A stretch of DNA of 64,000 bases from Methanolinea sp. Lineage in GTDB: Archaea; Halobacteriota; Methanomicrobia; Methanomicrobiales; Methanospirillaceae. Numbering within the stretch: position 1 is the first letter of the stretch; every line of letters starts with the position of its first letter. The position numbers and the translations under genes are program-made. Under the pieces are notes generated by a model that saw only the letters and a program-made list of their open reading frames with translations, was not told the origin of the DNA and did not search any database. Shown here piece by piece: positions 13,223 to 46,065 of the stretch. Where the stretch lies: positions 1 to 64,000 of the forward strand of contig JALOPW010000005.1 in assembly GCA_025453675.1 (NCBI GenBank). The letters run 5' to 3'.

Positions 13223-13453
13223 GAATGAAAATGCCGGAGGCATCCCCCTAAAAAAAAACCACATGATTCTCATCGAGACACATGCATACAGAATGAAAAT
13301 CACGGATGCGATTTTCATAGTAACACACTATGAACTCCTTTCAGGATTTCGAACATAAATTATGAAAATGGCGAAGCCATTTTGGCATGAAAACCGCATC
13401 CGCGGTTTTTATCACGGGGGGCATGTGACCCGACAGTCTCATGTGCGTTTCAT
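13223..13453. repeat. Palindrome-rich dispersed repeat, locus 1 (inverted-tail / P1 / A / P2 / P3 / tail)
   Basis: P1 13293-13318, module A 13322-13360, P2 13362-13383, P3 13387-13410, tail to 13453; shared with 17798-17931 and 45150-45216. Confidence 0.85.
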
Positions 13454-13477
13454 TAAAAAAAGGTATTCACGGACGAT

Positions 13478-14179
13478 TCAGAGATGCAGTTCTTTTATCT
13501 CGGCAGGAATATCGCCTGGTGCCACTCCGAGGATTGCGACCTCCATCACCTGGTCCCAGTTCACGATGGTCTCGACGCACCCGTCCTTGAGAGTCACCAC
13601 CCCCATGGAGACGAGACCGATCTTGTCGGACATCTCCAGACCTTCCTTCACCTCGGAGAGGCAGCCGATCCCGAGGATTGCCCGGGGATGGTACTTCTTC
13701 ACCATCCGCTTGATGAACGAGGAACCGGGGACGATGAATACCCGGTAACCCATCTTCTCCAGGACCTTCCTCCAGAATCCCACAGTGCATTCCCCGCAGC
13801 TCCTGCACTTCAGCCCCTCGGGAGTGAGGTGGGCCGGGCACCGGGATGACCGGAGGCACTGGGGGAGGAACACCGCCCTATCAGAGACAGGGATCTCGGA
13901 GAAGCTCTTCTTGTTCATGGTATTGTGCAGGTTGATGAAGAACGTCAGGACCTCGCTGTCCTCCAGCCCGAAGAGACGGAACAGTGCCTTGGCGAGCCCT
14001 TCCACGAGCACCATGCCCGCCTTCAGGAAACGGGGGAAGTAGAGCCTGCCCGTGCTGATAGAGTAGATGGAGAGGCCAACGAGTATGAGTGAAAAGAGAA
14101 AGATCCCGAAGACGACCACGATGGTGATCTCGCCGATCAGGAAGACAATGTTCTGCCACACTGCGGTATCAATCTGCAC
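13478..14179 (-). CDS. DUF116 family membrane protein
   Basis: N-terminal TM segments; Cys-rich CLRSSRCPAHLTPEGLKCRSCGEC; GIGCLSEVKEG. Confidence 0.8.
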   Translation of the reverse strand: MQIDTAVWQNIVFLIGEITIVVVFGIFLFSLILVGLSIYSISTGRLYFPRFLKAGMVLVEGLAKALFRLFGLEDSEVLTFFINLHNTMNKKSFSEIPVSDRAVFLPQCLRSSRCPAHLTPEGLKCRSCGECTVGFWRKVLEKMGYRVFIVPGSSFIKRMVKKYHPRAILGIGCLSEVKEGLEMSDKIGLVSMGVVTLKDGCVETIVNWDQVMEVAILGVAPGDIPAEIKELHL

Positions 14180-14193
14180 AGTTCCGAATCTCC

Positions 14194-15243
14194 TTACCTC
14201 TTTTGGTCTTTCCGGCCGGCTTCTATCATTTTCCAGTCGATCGGTGGGGTCAGGATCCCGATATCGGTGACAAAGGCCGTAACCAGGTCGTGGGGGGTGA
14301 TATCAAAGGCATAATTCTTCACACCGACCCCTTCAGGGACCATGGCCGCCCTGCCGCAGGATGCCACCTCTTCCCTCCCCCGCTCCTCGACAATGACCTC
14401 CCGTGCAGAACGGCCGGGGTCGAACGTGGAGAGCGGGGCTGCCACGTAGAAAGGCACGTCGTGGTGGCGGGCAGTGATTGCATGCATGTAGGTCCCAATC
14501 TTGTTGAATACCGCGTCAGGGGTGATCCGGTCCGCACCCACGATGACCAGGTCGATATCACCCCTCTTCATGAGGAAGGCAGCGGAAGAGTCCGGGATCA
14601 CGGTCACGGGGATCCCATCTCTCTGCAGTTCCCATGCCGTGAGCCGGGCTCCCTGAAGGAGGGGACGGGTCTCGCAGGCGATCACCTCCACCTCCTTTCC
14701 CCCTTCAACTGCAGAGCGGACCACGCCGAGTGCGGTCCCCCACTCGCTGCATGCCAGTGCCCCCGCGTTGCAGTGGGTGAGCACCGTGCAGTGTTCCCCA
14801 AGGAGGGTGGCCCCGGCCTTCCCCAGAGTATGGCAAGCCCTGGCATCAGCGGCGGCAACCCCTTGGGCGGACTCCAGGGCTTTGGTTCTTGCTTCGTGGA
14901 TGGAGTGGGCGTCCTCGACTGCCCTCATCACCTGTTCCACCCCCCACGAGAGATTCACCGCGGTGGGCCTGGCGTTCATAATCCGCCCTGCCTCGGATCG
15001 GAGGGCCCTCATGAAGCGGGAATGCTCCTTCTCCCGAATCGTCCTGGTGGCGAGCACCACCCCATAGGCCCCGGCTACCCCAAGGGCCGGGGCTCCCCGG
15101 ATCTCCAGGCGCGCAATCGCGGTGATCAGGCGGTCCACGGTCCGGCAGCGGACCAGGCGGAAGATTCCCGGAAGGCGGGTCTGGTCAATAAGGGTGACGC
15201 ACCCCGCTTCAGCATCCAGGGATATGGTCTCTACCACTCTCAT
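14194..15243 (-). CDS. mtnA: S-methyl-5-thioribose-1-phosphate isomerase family
   Basis: RGAPALGVAGAYG, THCNAGALACSEWGTALGV, GADRITPDAVFNKIGTY. Confidence 0.9.
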   Translation of the reverse strand: MRVVETISLDAEAGCVTLIDQTRLPGIFRLVRCRTVDRLITAIARLEIRGAPALGVAGAYGVVLATRTIREKEHSRFMRALRSEAGRIMNARPTAVNLSWGVEQVMRAVEDAHSIHEARTKALESAQGVAAADARACHTLGKAGATLLGEHCTVLTHCNAGALACSEWGTALGVVRSAVEGGKEVEVIACETRPLLQGARLTAWELQRDGIPVTVIPDSSAAFLMKRGDIDLVIVGADRITPDAVFNKIGTYMHAITARHHDVPFYVAAPLSTFDPGRSAREVIVEERGREEVASCGRAAMVPEGVGVKNYAFDITPHDLVTAFVTDIGILTPPIDWKMIEAGRKDQKR

Positions 15244-16523
15244 TCTGCAGATCCTTCCCTGGTGGCATCGATAAAGGCGCGCATGGCCGCCGCCCCGGCA
15301 TGCGCGACACAGTCAGGGATATCCCGGGGCTGGGTCGCGGTCCCTGCCAGGTAGATCCCCGGTTTTATGGTGGCCACAGTCTCGATCTTGTCATCCAGTG
15401 GCTTGAAAAATCCAGTGGACTCCCTGGGAAGGTCAAAGAGGGCGGCGATATCCTCTGCCTCTGCAGGGGGCTGGAGGCCCACCGAGAGGACCACCAGTTC
15501 AGGTACGAGTTCCACCATCTTTCCGTTCTCCGTGTTCTCCACCCTGATTATCAACTGCTTCCCGCTTGTTAGGACCTCCCCTGGTATGCCTCGCACGAAC
15601 CTGACCCCGGCATCCACGGCCCGCTGGTAATATTCCTCGTAGCCCTTGCCGTAGGCCCTGATATCCATATAGAGGATGGTCACCTCGCATTCAGGGTACT
15701 TCTCCCGCAGAAGCATGGCATTTTTTATGGCATACATGCAGCAGACGCCGGAGCAGTAAGGCCTGTCCGCCTGCATGTCCCTTGAGCCCACGCATTGTAC
15801 GAAGACGACCGATTTGGGGGTCTGCCCGGTCGAGAGCCGGAGTATCTTCCCCCCGGTCGGGCCGCTGGCATTCATCATCCGCTCGAACTCGAGGCTTGTA
15901 ATGACGTCAGGGAAACGGAGGTACTGGAACTGCTCCTTTTTCCTCGCGTCGAAGACATCGTACCCGCAGGCGATAATCACGCTCACCGCCTCGACAGCGA
16001 ATTGCTGCTCTGTATCCTCTTTCCGGATAGCCTCACGGCCGCAGACGTCATAGCAGAGGCCGCATTCGATGCAATGGTCAGGGTCCTTGATCACGATATC
16101 AGGGACCGCCTGCTGGTGGGGCTTGTAGATGGCTTTCCTGACCCCGAGGCCGGCGTCGAACCGGTTGTAGACCTCCACAGGGCAGACAGCGATACAGTCC
16201 CCGCACCCGTTGCAGCGTTCCTCATCGATGTAGCGGGGCATTTTGGTGACGGTAACCCGGAAATGGCCGGGTCCGCCGGAGATGCCGCTCACACGTGCAC
16301 AGGTATGGATATGGATACGGGGGTGACGGGATACATCCATCATCTTCGGGGAGAGGATGCACATCGAGCAGTCGTTCGTCGGGAAGGTCTTGTCAAGCAT
16401 CGCCATGTGGCCGCCGATGGAGGGCTCCTTCTCGATGAGATGGACATCGATGCCGTGGTTCGCAAGGTCGAGGGCTGCCTGGATACCGGTGACTCCTGCC
16501 CCGATGATCACCACGTCAGGCAT
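15240..16523 (-). CDS. CoB-CoM heterodisulfide reductase HdrA-like iron-sulfur flavoprotein
   Basis: FAD GAGVTGIQAALDLANHG, CSMCILSPKM, two [4Fe-4S] motifs, CVGSRD...YCSGVCC. Confidence 0.88.
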   Translation of the reverse strand: MPDVVIIGAGVTGIQAALDLANHGIDVHLIEKEPSIGGHMAMLDKTFPTNDCSMCILSPKMMDVSRHPRIHIHTCARVSGISGGPGHFRVTVTKMPRYIDEERCNGCGDCIAVCPVEVYNRFDAGLGVRKAIYKPHQQAVPDIVIKDPDHCIECGLCYDVCGREAIRKEDTEQQFAVEAVSVIIACGYDVFDARKKEQFQYLRFPDVITSLEFERMMNASGPTGGKILRLSTGQTPKSVVFVQCVGSRDMQADRPYCSGVCCMYAIKNAMLLREKYPECEVTILYMDIRAYGKGYEEYYQRAVDAGVRFVRGIPGEVLTSGKQLIIRVENTENGKMVELVPELVVLSVGLQPPAEAEDIAALFDLPRESTGFFKPLDDKIETVATIKPGIYLAGTATQPRDIPDCVAHAGAAAMRAFIDATREGSAE

Positions 16524-17007
16524 GCAGGTAGCTCCCGGCCAGGTCCCAGTAGTTCCTGGCGTTCTGCATGATATGCTGCCTCTGCGCATCCGTCACCTGC
16601 TTGATGACCTTTCCGGGGACCCCCACGACCACGGATCCCGGGGGTACCACGGTGCCCTCGGTGACCACCGAGCCGGCTCCGATGAGGCATTCTTCGCCCA
16701 CCATCGCGCCGTTGAGCACGATAGCCCCCATCCCTACCAGGACCCGATCAGAGATGGTGCACCCATGCAGGATGGCCCCGTGGCCTATGGATACCTCGTT
16801 TCCAATGAGTGCAGGGAACCCCTTGCTGGTGTGGATCACCGCGTTGTCCTGCACATTGGACCGGTCTGCAATAACGATACGATCTTTGTCTGCACGGACC
16901 ACCGCTCCGAACCAGATGCTCACTTCGGACCCTATCTCCACGTCCCCGAGCACTGTTGCATTCTCTGCGATAAAGGTCTGTGCCGTGCGCGTGCGACCAA
17001 CAGCCAT
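16516..17007 (-). CDS. Gamma-class carbonic anhydrase family protein (LbetaH)
   Basis: Hexapeptide repeats with conserved His (VIHTSKG, GHGAILHGC). Confidence 0.88.
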   Translation of the reverse strand: MAVGRTRTAQTFIAENATVLGDVEIGSEVSIWFGAVVRADKDRIVIADRSNVQDNAVIHTSKGFPALIGNEVSIGHGAILHGCTISDRVLVGMGAIVLNGAMVGEECLIGAGSVVTEGTVVPPGSVVVGVPGKVIKQVTDAQRQHIMQNARNYWDLAGSYLHA

Positions 17008-17037
17008 AATAGCATTAAAAATTCAATATCAGGCACC

Positions 17038-17496
17038 ATGAAGGTTATGGTCGGGGGAACGTTTGATCCCCTCCACGATGGCCATAAACGGCTGATTACC
17101 CGTTCATTTGAACTGGCGGGTGGAGACGGAACGGTGATCCTCGGCCTGACCACCGATCTCTTCGCATCACAAAAAAGCCACCCGGTGCGTCCTTTCAACG
17201 AGAGGAGGGACTCGCTTGAGAGATTTATCCAGCAGAACCGCTTTGCGGCCACCTGGGTAATCGAGCCGCTGAATGACCGTTTTGGCTCGGCACTGGACGA
17301 GGAGTTCGATGCCCTGGTGGTGAGCGAGGAGACCCTTCCCATCGCCAGGGACATCAATGTGCTCCGGCGTGAGCGGGGCCACCCGAAAGTGGACATCCAC
17401 CAGATCACCTGCGTCCTGGCTGAGGATGGCAGATGGATATCCAGCACCAGGATCTACCGTGGCGAGATCGACGATCACGGAAAGCTCCTTTCGTGA
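17038..17496 (+). CDS. coaD: Archaeal phosphopantetheine adenylyltransferase
   Basis: MKVMVGGTFDPLHDGHKRLI nucleotidyltransferase motif; WISSTRIYRGEID. Confidence 0.88.
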   Translation: MKVMVGGTFDPLHDGHKRLITRSFELAGGDGTVILGLTTDLFASQKSHPVRPFNERRDSLERFIQQNRFAATWVIEPLNDRFGSALDEEFDALVVSEETLPIARDINVLRRERGHPKVDIHQITCVLAEDGRWISSTRIYRGEIDDHGKLLS

Positions 17497-17797
17497 ACGG
17501 GATGAAAGACCCGGGATGTGGGCCATGGATTGAACCGCGGGCATCATATCAATATATACGCGGTGATGCAGGAGAATGGATCCGGTACTCACAGCATCTC
17601 TTTTTCATTCTCGTTGCGTTCGGTCTTCTTTCCATGTGCCTGTGTATTCCGGTCCGAAACTCTGTATCTCCCCGAATACGGACATTCTCATATCCTCAAG
17701 GTCACCCTGGCATGATGGTTGAACCGATGGTATCATGCACATTCATATCAGGGAACACCCCACCAGGAGAGTGATACTCTCAACATCATTTTTTCGA

Positions 17798-17931
17798 ATG
17801 AAAATGGCTTCGCTATTTTCATGATTTATGTCCGAAATCCTGAAAGGAGTTCATAGTGTGTTGGTATGAAAACCGCATCCGCGGTTTTCATCAGGGGGGC
17901 ATGTGACCGGACTGTCTCATGTGCGTTTCAT
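17798..17931. repeat. Palindrome-rich dispersed repeat, locus 2, with the A-P2 module inverted relative to locus 1
   Basis: 17824-17862 is the reverse complement of 13322-13360 with one mismatch; P3+tail 17866-17931 is in the same orientation as 13387-13453. Confidence 0.88.
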
Positions 17932-32561: not shown

Positions 32562-34883
32562 TCAATCTTCGAATATGTTGTAGCGATCCCCCTTCTCATC
32601 CACGAGAAGGAACCGCTCCAGGTCCATGATCAGGTCCCGCACATTCTGGTAGCGATCCTCTGGTCTCTTCTCCAGGCACCGCATGACGATGGGATCAAGG
32701 GGCTTTGCATTGGGATTTTGGCGTGACGGAAGTCTCGGCACCTCGGAGGTGATGAGAGAGCTGACCTGCACCATGTCATTCCCGGGGAAGGGGACGGTTC
32801 CCGTGATCAACTCGTAGAGCACGCACCCCAGCTGGTAGATATCGGTACGCTGGTCGGTCTCCCCGAATGTCAGTGGCGCCAGCTGCTCCGGTGCGGCGTA
32901 GGCGAGGGAAAAGCCGGTGATGGTGGGCATCCCGGTCACTCCCATCACCTTGCTCATCCCCCAGTCCGTGATCTTGGGAACGCCGTTGGAGGTCACAAGG
33001 ATATTCTGGGGCTTGATGTCCCTGTGAATGATCCCCCGATCGTGGGCAAACATGAGGCCACGGGCCACGTCCCGGCAGATCCGGGCGGCGGACCGGACAG
33101 GGAGGGGTCTTTGGAGGTCTGAGAGGGTCTTTTCGATAAATTCCATCTCAACGTACGGAATGGGGAGGATGTTCACCCCTGTCACCCGTACAATATTCTC
33201 GTGCTCCAGCCCCTCCCAGCCCACGATCTCCTTTAAAAAGGATTTCCCTGTATTCTCATCAGACTGCAGGGGGATCTTCAATGCTACCTCCTGTCCCGTC
33301 AGGAGATTTCTGGCCTTGAAGACCCGGGCAAGGCCACCCGAGCCGACGAATTCAGTTACGTCGTATTTATCGGCGAGTTCGGGGGGGAACATTCCTTTTC
33401 CGGCAAGGGGGAGGGCGCTTGTCTTGTCCGGTCCGTTCCGGAGCACAACACTCTCCCCTGCCGGGCCACCATTCCCTCCCCGATCATGGCTGTAATTCCC
33501 GTCCTGCCAGCGGGCTGCGAGAGTGGAGAGTACACCCGCGAGGAGCGCCACTCCCATGATAAAACGCCTTGCCGGGTCTCCCGCGATCAATGCCATGAGG
33601 GCAAGGAAGATGACCAGGACCCCTGCGACGGTATGGGCCTTCAGCATTCCCTGAAACGGCCATGAAAGCAGGGCTCCCATCATCAGGGCGACCGATGAGA
33701 GGATGAGATACACCAAAAGGGGCAGGACCACGATGACCAGTTCGGGAGAGAGTCCTCCTGCATTCCCCCCGGGGAACTGCAGGTACCAGTGCAGCACCAC
33801 TCCCATCGCAGTGCAGGGAATGGCGAAGAGTACACATGCCAGCAGGCGTCTGCGAAGCGGGACATCTCTCACTCGCGTGGAGCTGAGCACGTCCCTGGAG
33901 AGGATGATGGTGGCAAGTCCCCCTGCTGCAAGTATGATGAAGATCCCCGGAATTGGCGGGGAGGAAGGGGGGATTCCCCCATTGCCTGGCATGGGGGGTG
34001 TGGTGACCGGGGGACTGGTGGTTTCTTCAGTGGTAATGGTGACAGTCGGTTGAATCTCCGTTCCAGTGGGAGTAGGGGATGTGGTTGGCTGGGTAGTGGG
34101 AGCGGTAGTAGTGACAGTGGCAGTGGGTTGAGTGGTGGTGGCAGTGGTGGTGGGGGATGTGGTTGGCTGGGTAGTGGGAGCGGTAGTAGTGACAGTGGTA
34201 GTGGGTTGGGTGGTGGTGACAGTGGTGGTGGGGGAGGTGGTGGCAGTGGTGGTTGGAACAGTTGTGGCAGTGGTAGTGGGTTGGGTGGTGGTGACAGTGG
34301 TGGTGGGGGAGGTGGTGGCAGTGGTGGTTGGAACAGTCGTGGCAGTGGTAGGGACAGGAAGAAGTATTGCAACCGGGAGCACGGTTGTCTGGCCTTCCGT
34401 AACCTGCACCTCTGCCCGGTATTCCTGGTATCCCTGCATCAGCATGCGAACAGTATGAGAGCCAGGGATGATACGCGTAAAGGTAACCGGTCCACCAGGA
34501 TCAGTGACCCCATAGAAGGTATTGTCGATGAACACCTCCGCTCCCGCAGGTCTCGAGTCCACCTGTAATGATCCAAAGAGGGGCTGGAATGCGACGGAGA
34601 TGACGTGGTTGGTATTGACTTTGTTGAAGGTATACAGCGGGATAGCTCCCAGCGATTTCTGATCCACCTGCACATTCTGTATCTTATAACCCTGGAATGC
34701 CTCGATCACGAAAGCCTGGTCGCTTCCCCTGGAGACGATCACTTCACCTGAAGGGGAGATCTTCCCCCCGGTACCCGCGCTCGCCGTGATGGTATAGGTG
34801 TCCGCACAAAAACCGGGGATGGGGAGGAGTAGGAGGGCGAGGATCAGGAGCGAAACAACAGTCCAGGGAGAAGAGCGGGCCAT
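32562..34883 (-). CDS. Membrane Ser/Thr protein kinase with N-terminal PEGA domain and Thr/Pro repeat linker
   Basis: SRPAGAEVFIDNTFYGVTDPGGPVTF (PEGA), Thr-rich stalk, TM helices, kinase motifs VALKIP, IIHRDIKPQNILV, TDWG. Confidence 0.92.
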   Translation of the reverse strand: MARSSPWTVVSLLILALLLLPIPGFCADTYTITASAGTGGKISPSGEVIVSRGSDQAFVIEAFQGYKIQNVQVDQKSLGAIPLYTFNKVNTNHVISVAFQPLFGSLQVDSRPAGAEVFIDNTFYGVTDPGGPVTFTRIIPGSHTVRMLMQGYQEYRAEVQVTEGQTTVLPVAILLPVPTTATTVPTTTATTSPTTTVTTTQPTTTATTVPTTTATTSPTTTVTTTQPTTTVTTTAPTTQPTTSPTTTATTTQPTATVTTTAPTTQPTTSPTPTGTEIQPTVTITTEETTSPPVTTPPMPGNGGIPPSSPPIPGIFIILAAGGLATIILSRDVLSSTRVRDVPLRRRLLACVLFAIPCTAMGVVLHWYLQFPGGNAGGLSPELVIVVLPLLVYLILSSVALMMGALLSWPFQGMLKAHTVAGVLVIFLALMALIAGDPARRFIMGVALLAGVLSTLAARWQDGNYSHDRGGNGGPAGESVVLRNGPDKTSALPLAGKGMFPPELADKYDVTEFVGSGGLARVFKARNLLTGQEVALKIPLQSDENTGKSFLKEIVGWEGLEHENIVRVTGVNILPIPYVEMEFIEKTLSDLQRPLPVRSAARICRDVARGLMFAHDRGIIHRDIKPQNILVTSNGVPKITDWGMSKVMGVTGMPTITGFSLAYAAPEQLAPLTFGETDQRTDIYQLGCVLYELITGTVPFPGNDMVQVSSLITSEVPRLPSRQNPNAKPLDPIVMRCLEKRPEDRYQNVRDLIMDLERFLLVDEKGDRYNIFED
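34020..34350. repeat. Imperfect tandem repeats encoding the Thr/Pro stalk of the kinase
   Basis: Two ~73-bp near-identical units (~34198-34270 and ~34271-34343) plus degenerate units. Confidence 0.85.
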
Positions 34884-43570: not shown

Positions 43571-44066
43571 GGTCTTCCCGGGAGCAGCGGCCTTCTTCTT
43601 CCGATCGATGATCTTCTTCACTTTTTTTCAGCCGGTAGAGGTCTTCGCGTTCGCGTTCGTCTATCGTGATCTCGATATATTTTGCCTGGCGTGTTAATTC
43701 GGGGATGAGCACCTGCTCCAGGGCATTCGCTATCCTTCGGGTCATCTGGATCTCGCTGCTTATTCTCCGGATCGATGTCTCGGTCTCTGCGAGGCTGATT
43801 ATGAGATCCAGTTCTGCTCCGTATTTCTCCGCAGCCTCGTCAATTCGCCCGCTCACCCCCAGGATACTACAGCTCCTCTTCATGAGGCCCTTCACGAACC
43901 GCTTCTTCTCGATGATGGGGACAGGGACACCCACGATATTCTTCCCCTTGATGTCGAGGGTGATGCCGCTCCTGGTGGCAAAAGAGGCAGACTTCAGGGT
44001 GATGGGATCATCGACCGCCAGCGCGATCAGCAGAGAGTGCTGGGCAACGTTGGCGAGTGTCTTCAT
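43565..44066 (-). pseudogene. Decayed second A-ATP synthase D subunit (atpD')
   Basis: Highly similar to 45433..46065 but lacks ~50 N-terminal residues. A7 homopolymer (plus-strand T7 43622-43628) shifts the frame; restoring A6 gives LKKVKKIIDRKKKAAAPGKTS*. Confidence 0.8.
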
Positions 44067-44612: not shown

Positions 44613-45149
44613 ATCACCTTTTCCTACCTCATATGATCCTGGACCACACCATTTTATAACCTGATCCCTGTGTCGCTCACATTAGATTATGGTGAATGAA
44701 TACCCACTTCTGAATAGAAATGCCTCCCAATTTGAAAACGACAAGTGACCAACTTTGTATTGAAGCTTTTCGTATGCGGGATTTTCTCTACAATAAACCA
44801 CCTCCTTTAGTGTGGATGTCACAAAAAAACGAGACACAATTTTTTATCTCTTATGATTATCTTTAAGTGCAAAAATAGCACTTGTAATCGTAAATATTAT
44901 TTATAATATAATAACTTTCCTATGGATAGTAGATTTGGTGATACATAGGATCCGCCCCTAACCGTTCGTGATGAAGGGGATATGGACCAAATGGGTGTTT
45001 TTATTTATCGGCCAAGCTCATTTATGTATATCTATTTTCCCTCGATTTTCTTATGAAAGTCGAAATACCATCTCTCCCTCCGAATTCTATTCTCACAGGA
45101 AATGAAAGTAACGTCAAAAGGATGTAAAAGGAAATACTGGTCATTTGGC

Positions 45150-45216
45150 ATGAAAACCGCATCCGCGGTTTTCATCAGGGGGGGTCTGTGAACGTAAGTT
45201 ATCATGAGCGTTTCAT
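45150..45216. repeat. Palindrome-rich dispersed repeat, locus 3 (P3+tail only)
   Basis: atgaaaaccgcatccgcggttttcatca identical to locus 2; degenerate tail ending gcgtttcat. Confidence 0.8.
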
Positions 45217-45432: not shown

Positions 45433-46065
45433 TCATTTTTTCTTCCTTTCTATAATCTTTTTCACCTTTTTCAACCGGAAAAGGTCTTCCCGATCCCGTT
45501 CATCTATCGTAGTCTTAATATATTTAGCCTGTTTTTTCAATTCGGGGATAAGTATCTGCTCTAGTGCATTTACCCGCCGCCGGGTCATCTGGATTTCACT
45601 TCCTAATCGTCGTAGCGATGTCTCGGTCTCTGCGAGACTGATGATGAGATCCAGTTCCGCTTCATATTTTTCTGCTGCTTCGTCGATCCGTCCGCTCACT
45701 CCCAAAATACTATAGCCCCGATCCAGGATGCTTTTTACAAAACGCTTTTTTTCGATAATTGGAACAGGTACACCCATGACATTTTTTCCCTTGATATCAA
45801 GGGTGATACCCCGCCTGGTGGCGAATGAAGCAGACTTGAGGGTAACAGGATCATCTATTGCCTGGGCGATAAGCAGAGCATGCTGGGCGATATCGGATAG
45901 TTTCTCAAGCTCGCTTCGTGACTGTGAAACCGATTCCATGACATTGAAGAACTCCTGGATCAGCGCATCCATCTTTTCCCGGAGGAGATCACGTCCCTGT
46001 TCTGCGAGCTTTATCTGGGCATTCTTCTTTATGAGCTCCATCCGGGTGGGATTAATTTGTTCCAT
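45433..46065 (-). CDS. atpD: A-type ATP synthase subunit D
   Basis: NPTRMELIKKNAQIKLAEQGRDLLREKMDALIQEF; end of A-ATPase operon. Confidence 0.93.
   Translation of the reverse strand: MEQINPTRMELIKKNAQIKLAEQGRDLLREKMDALIQEFFNVMESVSQSRSELEKLSDIAQHALLIAQAIDDPVTLKSASFATRRGITLDIKGKNVMGVPVPIIEKKRFVKSILDRGYSILGVSGRIDEAAEKYEAELDLIISLAETETSLRRLGSEIQMTRRRVNALEQILIPELKKQAKYIKTTIDERDREDLFRLKKVKKIIERKKK

Follow-up and report, generated by a model that had tools for sequence, protein, structure and literature searches.

Two composite repeat loci in a Methanolinea contig

The window analysed here is a 64,000-nucleotide (nt) stretch of Methanolinea sp. (GCA_025453675.1, contig JALOPW010000005.1, positions 1 to 64,000, forward strand), contig C13 of a genome assembly of 1,838,665 bases in 53 contigs that is 94% complete. 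Between positions 13223 and 17931 it carries two loci at which short hairpin-forming repeats are joined into composites, described in an earlier note as a palindromic, dispersed repeat with an inverted central module and the geometry of a flippable or transposable cassette. We find instead a family of hairpin repeat units that is real, dispersed and not a switch, and that is in all likelihood mobile.

Both loci lie where that note had placed them. Locus 2 is a chain of an A unit and a T unit: the A hairpin (P2) is uninterrupted at 17798-17822, with TTTTTTCGA before it, and is followed by the A tail on the minus strand (17823-17862) and by a plus-strand T unit (17863-17928; nhmmer E = 4e-15) whose hairpin, P3, occupies 17866-17891 and whose tail contains a second hairpin (two-hairpin fold, z -4.2). 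Locus 1 is a chain of the same kind in the opposite orientation, with an additional T unit lodged in the A hairpin. It begins on the minus strand with a T/B-like unit (13250-13318) made up of hairpin P1 (13293-13318), a tail with a second hairpin, and a T-run; as single-stranded DNA this unit folds into two hairpins (z -4.5), and nhmmer matches it to the T unit over 13260-13319 on the minus strand (E = 0.0015). The plus-strand A tail follows (13319-13361), and then P2 (13362-13383), which breaks off after its TTTT (13380-13383) and is completed by its final CAT at 13451-13453. The intervening GGC-P3-tail-GTTT (13384-13450, plus strand; nhmmer E = 5e-14) is a second unit, of T type, in the 3' arm of P2; with it removed, the flanks on either side join into a palindrome that pairs at 11/11.

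Module A of the earlier note (13322-13360) is indeed the reverse complement of 17824-17862 with one mismatch, and a search at up to 14 mismatches finds no further copy of it in the window; P3 with its tail has the same orientation at locus 1 (13384-13453) and locus 2 (17863-17931), as had been described. The inversion is not, however, confined to the centre. Positions 13279-13383 align to 17801-17905, read as its reverse complement, in a single 105-nt inverted match without gaps (91/105 identical), and because this match includes P1 opposite P3 as well as the beginning of the tail, it is the whole composite that is inverted between the loci; by the same single match, P1 is the counterpart of the locus-2 P3, and the adjoining 'inverted tail' (13260-13285) the counterpart of its tail. 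That inverted tail is a diverged T-type tail. P1 differs from reverse-complemented P3 (17866-17891) at 3 of 26 positions, two of which (8 and 19) are the compensatory change from C-G to T-A already recognised, while the third, an uncompensated G to A at position 10, had been overlooked.

A flippable cassette, in which a site-specific recombinase would invert A-P2 by means of the inverted repeats P1 and P3, was suggested by the position of A-P2 between inverted hairpins at locus 1 and by the opposite orientation of A at the two loci. We regard it as very remote. The inverted match extends through P1 into the tail, and the outer P1, which the flip product of locus 1 would keep, is absent at locus 2. 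In addition, none of the 38 copies of A in this genome with both sides readable (of 41 hits) is flipped against the hairpin neighbouring its tail, so that the two orientations between inverted repeats that define an invertible DNA switch do not occur among them, and on this count the flipping cassette was rejected. (The T-unit counts given below come from 275 kilobases, merged from 40 stretches around repeat copies and from loci matching the locus-2 composite.) The tail side of A meets a T, B, C or A hairpin, although in some copies the script recognises none there; wherever such a neighbour exists, its relative orientation is the same. On the P2 side the hairpin may be uninterrupted, interrupted by a T unit, or degraded. 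The inverted-repeat geometry of P1 and P3 at locus 1 arises because the second unit sits in the P2 arm, and nesting of this kind explains a confusing repeat without a DNA switch.

Anatomy and folding of the units

Each unit is about 66 nt long and consists of a leader (GGT, GGC or CGA), a hairpin of the form ATGAAAA...TTTTCAT, and a tail of about 40 nt that contains a second hairpin and ends in T's. The T unit reads GGT-ATGAAAACCGCATCCGCGGTTTTCAT-CAGGGGGGCATGTGACCCGACAGTCTCATGTGCGTTT, with the ends GGT and GTTT; other unit types retain the arms ATGAAAA and TTTTCAT and have different tails. A two-hairpin fold of single-stranded DNA is predicted, at z values between -4.2 and -7.9, for the T and A units, for the B-like unit of locus 1 and for units from genomes G126 and G109; it is less clear for units from G088 and G078 (z -1.6 to -2.7), and in the tandem units of L011 and G008 hairpin 1 alone is firm. 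Such folds are thus seen again in families of the order other than that of this genome. Within the genus, pairing in the inner stem of hairpin 1 is maintained as its sequence changes, with 113 of 132 pairs retained in 33 distinct hairpins against 88.8 with shuffled partners (maximum 103 in 2000). The covariation set comprised 48 hairpins (from 50, two not carried over), and the comparison concerns inner pairs, the outer seven being set by the search pattern and hence uninformative.

Copies in the genome and their setting

At up to 2 mismatches the P3 palindrome ATGAAAACCGCNNNNGCGGTTTTCAT has 76 copies in the genome, on many contigs and not on this one alone, against none for the reversed pattern; the palindrome is therefore not a product of chance, and the words 'dispersed' and 'palindromic' were well chosen. 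Searched at up to 1 mismatch, the palindrome has 67 copies in this genome and between 0 and 11 in each of the 12 congeners, so copy number turns over quickly. The locus-2 composite, used as a query, gives 60 matches, 21 of them near full length, and the T consensus gives 68 nhmmer hits, 62 of them full length. All but one of the 68 T hits are intergenic according to a home-made gene caller. By junction, 31 lie between co-directional, 22 between convergent and 13 between divergent genes (classes to which 143, 50 and 40 background junctions belong, respectively), and one lies at the edge of a contig; the T units between co-directional genes divide by hand count into 14 sense and 17 antisense.

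Chains, nesting and target site

The full-length T units occupy three kinds of position: 23 lie in the 3' arm of another hairpin (a class assigned by text pattern, one member of which, C14:15293, is doubtful on reading), 20 follow an A tail, and 19 are elsewhere, many of these after three or more T's. At least two T's precede the leader in 58 of the 62, and CAT stands directly 3' of the unit in 38 of 61 (hand count; one unit was not placed by the script). No CAT separates the units in the tandem T-T arrangement (C6, 66 nt) or in T-A chains. Because CAT is missing between chained units and present after those 38, it belongs to the target, and the junction between TTTT and CAT is a target preference; TTTT precedes the unit, with no target duplication visible beyond the T's. 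In two cases (C46:3170 and C29:49359) a B-type hairpin lies to the left of T and the B tail of the same unit to its right. Units with A, A2, B and C tails all serve as hosts to nested T units, so nesting arose several times.

One congener has an array of eight 68-nt units, each a hairpin plus tail, arranged head to tail (L119:1687-2188, G008:C31).

Orthologous sites in relatives

Four orthologous sites were compared, namely locus 1, locus 2 and two sites, X and Y, on contig C46. By eye, neither the locus 1 nor the locus 2 composite is present between the same genes in the congeners readable by script (6 of 12 for each locus), loci in reverse orientation not having been extracted. The sequence TTTTTTC, the A-T composite and TCATGTATTC of this genome correspond at locus 2 to TTTTTTCTCATCTATTC in a relative, which makes locus 2 an insertion without duplication; it alone is usable for an exact junction, the C46 sites being too diverged. 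The intergenic region at site X measures 256-332 bases in congeners, which lack the composite, and 554 here (60 anchor bases subtracted). At site Y some congeners are short, and G001 (L168, corresponding to G000:C46:13680-13995) has a different mosaic of related hairpin units. The suggestion that the element is transposable thus gains support both from the absence of the same composite at the relatives' orthologous sites and from the nesting of units in one another.

Spread across Methanomicrobiales

A general hairpin pattern, ATGAAAAN{10,13}TTTTCAT, occurs 138 times in this genome (control 0) and from 0 to 138 times across genomes of the genus. It is present at least once in 100 of 232 genomes of the order, and the other 231 genomes together hold about 425 hairpins (summed by hand) compared with 8 for the reversed control; they cluster in certain genomes, which belong to several genera and at least three families. 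Loci read in G126, G088, G078, G109 and G008 follow the hairpin-plus-tail plan; in G115 two hairpins were read, with no clear tail. A strict hairpin extended by one base matches only two contigs, both of Methanoregulaceae archaeon UBA10516, in a genome-contig collection from which records of near relatives are possibly excluded.

In genome G126 a gene resembling cas1 by eye adjoins a hairpin unit (L107:326-1295).

Search for a mobiliser

Three profiles were run on the genus: Y1_Tnp (PF01797), reverse transcriptase and PF07282 (TnpB family). Y1_Tnp matches in none of the 13 genus genomes, with positive control matches in 5 of 14 genomes, and the REP-type transposase to which the earlier note had pointed was accordingly found neither in this genome nor in its 12 congeners. 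Across the order Y1_Tnp occurs in 30 of 232 genomes, that is, in 3 of the 25 with five or more hairpins and in 27 of the 207 others (hand count). A Y1 transposase was rejected as the mover, since it was not found within the genus and shows no association with hairpin-rich genomes across the order. A retroposition model, with the T-run as primer, was likewise rejected, since reverse transcriptase was found in 0/13 genomes. PF07282 gives, in 12 of the 13 genomes, a single hit close to the cut-off; the hit in this genome, the only one translated, lies in a protein of 377 amino acids that, to judge by its sequence, resembles transcription factor B (TFB), and TnpB was set aside on that basis.

Nor did a gene-bearing autonomous copy emerge, the genes between close hairpin units in G000 being ordinary by eye. 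The genes next to hairpins in other genomes likewise seem ordinary by eye, and no recurrent transposase was seen among them, without a family scan; viral contigs contain no exact match for two hairpin patterns; and no relevant Rfam match to the repeats reaches threshold.

Mechanism and alternative explanations

We hypothesize that these are self-targeting, non-autonomous mobile hairpin repeats, and put the probability of this reading at roughly 0.68. A unit would insert 3' of a T-run, preferably between TTTT and CAT, with no duplication beyond the T's. With TTTTCAT in both arms of its hairpin, each inserted unit would supply new landing sites, from which the head-to-tail chains and nested composites would follow. 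What lies beyond target choice we infer: movement may proceed through a single-stranded hairpin intermediate, as in the IS200/IS605 and REP systems, and the moving enzyme would act in trans. A wider proposal, of an order-wide hairpin-repeat system with its own target TTTTCAT in both arms and a mobiliser of a new kind, neither Y1, TnpB-linked nor reverse-transcriptase based, is a tentative one that we hold possible at best.

Several observations weigh against self-targeting mobility. The three profiles yielded no mobiliser in the genus, and outside the genus the inner stem shows no covariation beyond shuffles (34/60 pairs against 31.7, in 15 distinct hairpins). Removal of T restores a palindrome at 10 or more of 11 pairs in 21 of 62 units, some of which are chance palindromes, and this test is weak in that 105 of 488 shifted-junction controls reach the level of 10 of 11 as well, a permissive control because the right flank contributes CAT alone. 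The comparison is one of congeners, not of close strains; at only about 70-90% identity, their intergenic sequences have diverged so far that the exact position of most junctions is lost. Finally, C46 site Y, with the related mosaic of G001, may be an old insertion hot spot.

The units might alternatively be IS605-derived PATEs or REPs whose TnpA (Y1 HUH) is missing from the assembly, was recently lost, or is supplied by a virus or plasmid. Assembly completeness of 94% leaves some room for this, and the near-terminal palindromes, the lack of inverted terminal repeats and of target duplication, and insertion into palindromes as well as on the 3' side of a short T-rich oligonucleotide all have parallels among the PATEs and SMR-A described in PMC3119063; yet the Y1_Tnp results in the genus, where the control was positive, and in the order, together with the viral contigs, argue against it, and we consider it unlikely.

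An improbable alternative is that the repeats are functional RNA elements, either hairpins of 3' untranslated regions or terminators, whose spread would be due to selection and gene conversion, an origin suggested before for some REPs. Some tails do end in a hairpin followed by T's, and convergent genes flank 22 of the 66 classifiable T hits against 50 of 233 background junctions, but the lack of strand preference between co-directional genes, for which a terminator role was rejected, speaks against such a function, as do the 13 T hits in divergent regions, the absence of the same element from all four compared sites in the congeners read, and the lack of an Rfam match reaching threshold. Passive spread by slippage, template switching or recombination between hairpins, with no dedicated enzyme, has even less to recommend it: slippage could produce the tandem arrays at C6 (66 nt) and G008:C31 (68 nt), but passive spread leaves unexplained both the T units that stand alone at unrelated intergenic T-runs yet share one left junction and the dozens of dispersed copies in one species with none in several congeners.

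Relation to known repeat families

Bacterial genomes are shaped by short palindromic repeats via RAYT, whereas the comparable archaeal repeats that we found described are haloarchaeal. According to PMC3119063, Haloquadratum walsbyi carries PATEs, which share their ends with IS605-type transposons of the same genome, and SMR-A, of about 110 base pairs with prominent inverted terminal repeats, which insert within the near-terminal palindromes of PATEs and whose mobilisation is called 'enigmatic'. Like both of these, the units studied here are short, non-coding, present in tens of copies and without target duplication, and use a short targeting sequence. PATE-like in particular are the palindromes near the ends in the absence of terminal inverted repeats (T, A and B-like folds; ends GGT and GTTT) and the short targeting oligonucleotide, TTTT before the unit, with no duplication beyond the T's at locus 2 relative to relatives. 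As regards the ends that PATEs share with IS605-type transposons, Y1_Tnp was found in none of the 13 genomes and the PF07282 hit of this genome is TFB-like. Insertion inside the palindromes of other repeats (23/62 T units, and in two cases parts of the host unit flank T left and right) recalls SMR-A; unlike SMR-A, the units are about 66 nt long and lack terminal inverted repeats, and unlike both SMR-A and PATEs, the targeted motif lies in the element's own hairpin.

The bacterial REP, BIME and REPIN sequences are characterised, in PMC2817692, PMC3116915, PMC3733652 and PMC6006769, as intergenic palindromes of high copy number in mosaic clusters, served by RAYT; REPs bear a GTAG or CGTC tag and depend on a Y1 transposase, the orientation of BIMEs alternates, and among the Y1 subclasses the IS200 type alone is said to occur in Archaea (PMC6006769). 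Our repeats are REP-like in being short, high-copy, intergenic palindromes (76 copies; 67/68 T hits intergenic). Unlike REPs they have neither GTAG nor CGTC beside hairpin 1, which is flanked by GGT, GGC or CGA and by CAGGGG-type tails (GTAG occurs solely at the far end of B tails), and no cognate Y1 transposase (RAYT) was found in the 13 genus genomes; unlike BIMEs, their chains are mostly head to tail. The family resembles both the haloarchaeal and the bacterial repeats in part; since it lacks a defining feature of REP and one of SMR-A, we assign it to neither of these two and class it as a variant among the palindromic mobile repeats of archaea. Pneumococcal BOX and similar repeats are modular mosaics of short conserved boxes; the modular mosaic is alike here, and sequence and domain of life differ.

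Among open-licence papers, preprints excluded, no literature on these repeats in Methanomicrobiales was found by title or the start of the abstract. The family combines a compact anatomy and a readable target with genomes in which the usual movers were sought and not found, and what moves the repeats becomes a concrete question because copy numbers that range from 0 to dozens can be set against gene content across 13 congeners.

Other features of the window

A hairpin remnant (ATGAAAATGCCGGAGGCAT; C-type stem, right arm lost; direct repeat D5) is read on the plus strand at 13226-13244. A third copy of P3 with its tail, absent from the earlier note, stands at 45147-45216 and represents a solitary plus-strand T unit with a diverged tail (45147-45213; nhmmer E = 2e-8; direct repeat D3). 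On either side of this unit, at 43624-43923 and 45467-45766, is a 300-nt direct repeat, 77% identical, in two neighbouring minus-strand open reading frames, likely a gene duplication. Between two convergent genes, at 17520-17605 and 17710-17795, are two related blocks of about 75 nt (TTGAACC..., a TATA-like stretch, and ...GGTACTCACAGCATCTCTTTTT or ...GAGAGTGATACTCTCAACATCATTTTTT), candidate tandem small RNAs that have no relevant Rfam match and are kept in orthologous intergenic regions of several congeners. A low-complexity repeat with 12/15-nt steps (GTGGTGGCAGTGGTGGT...) occupies 34045-34370, inside the long minus-strand open reading frame 32562-34883.

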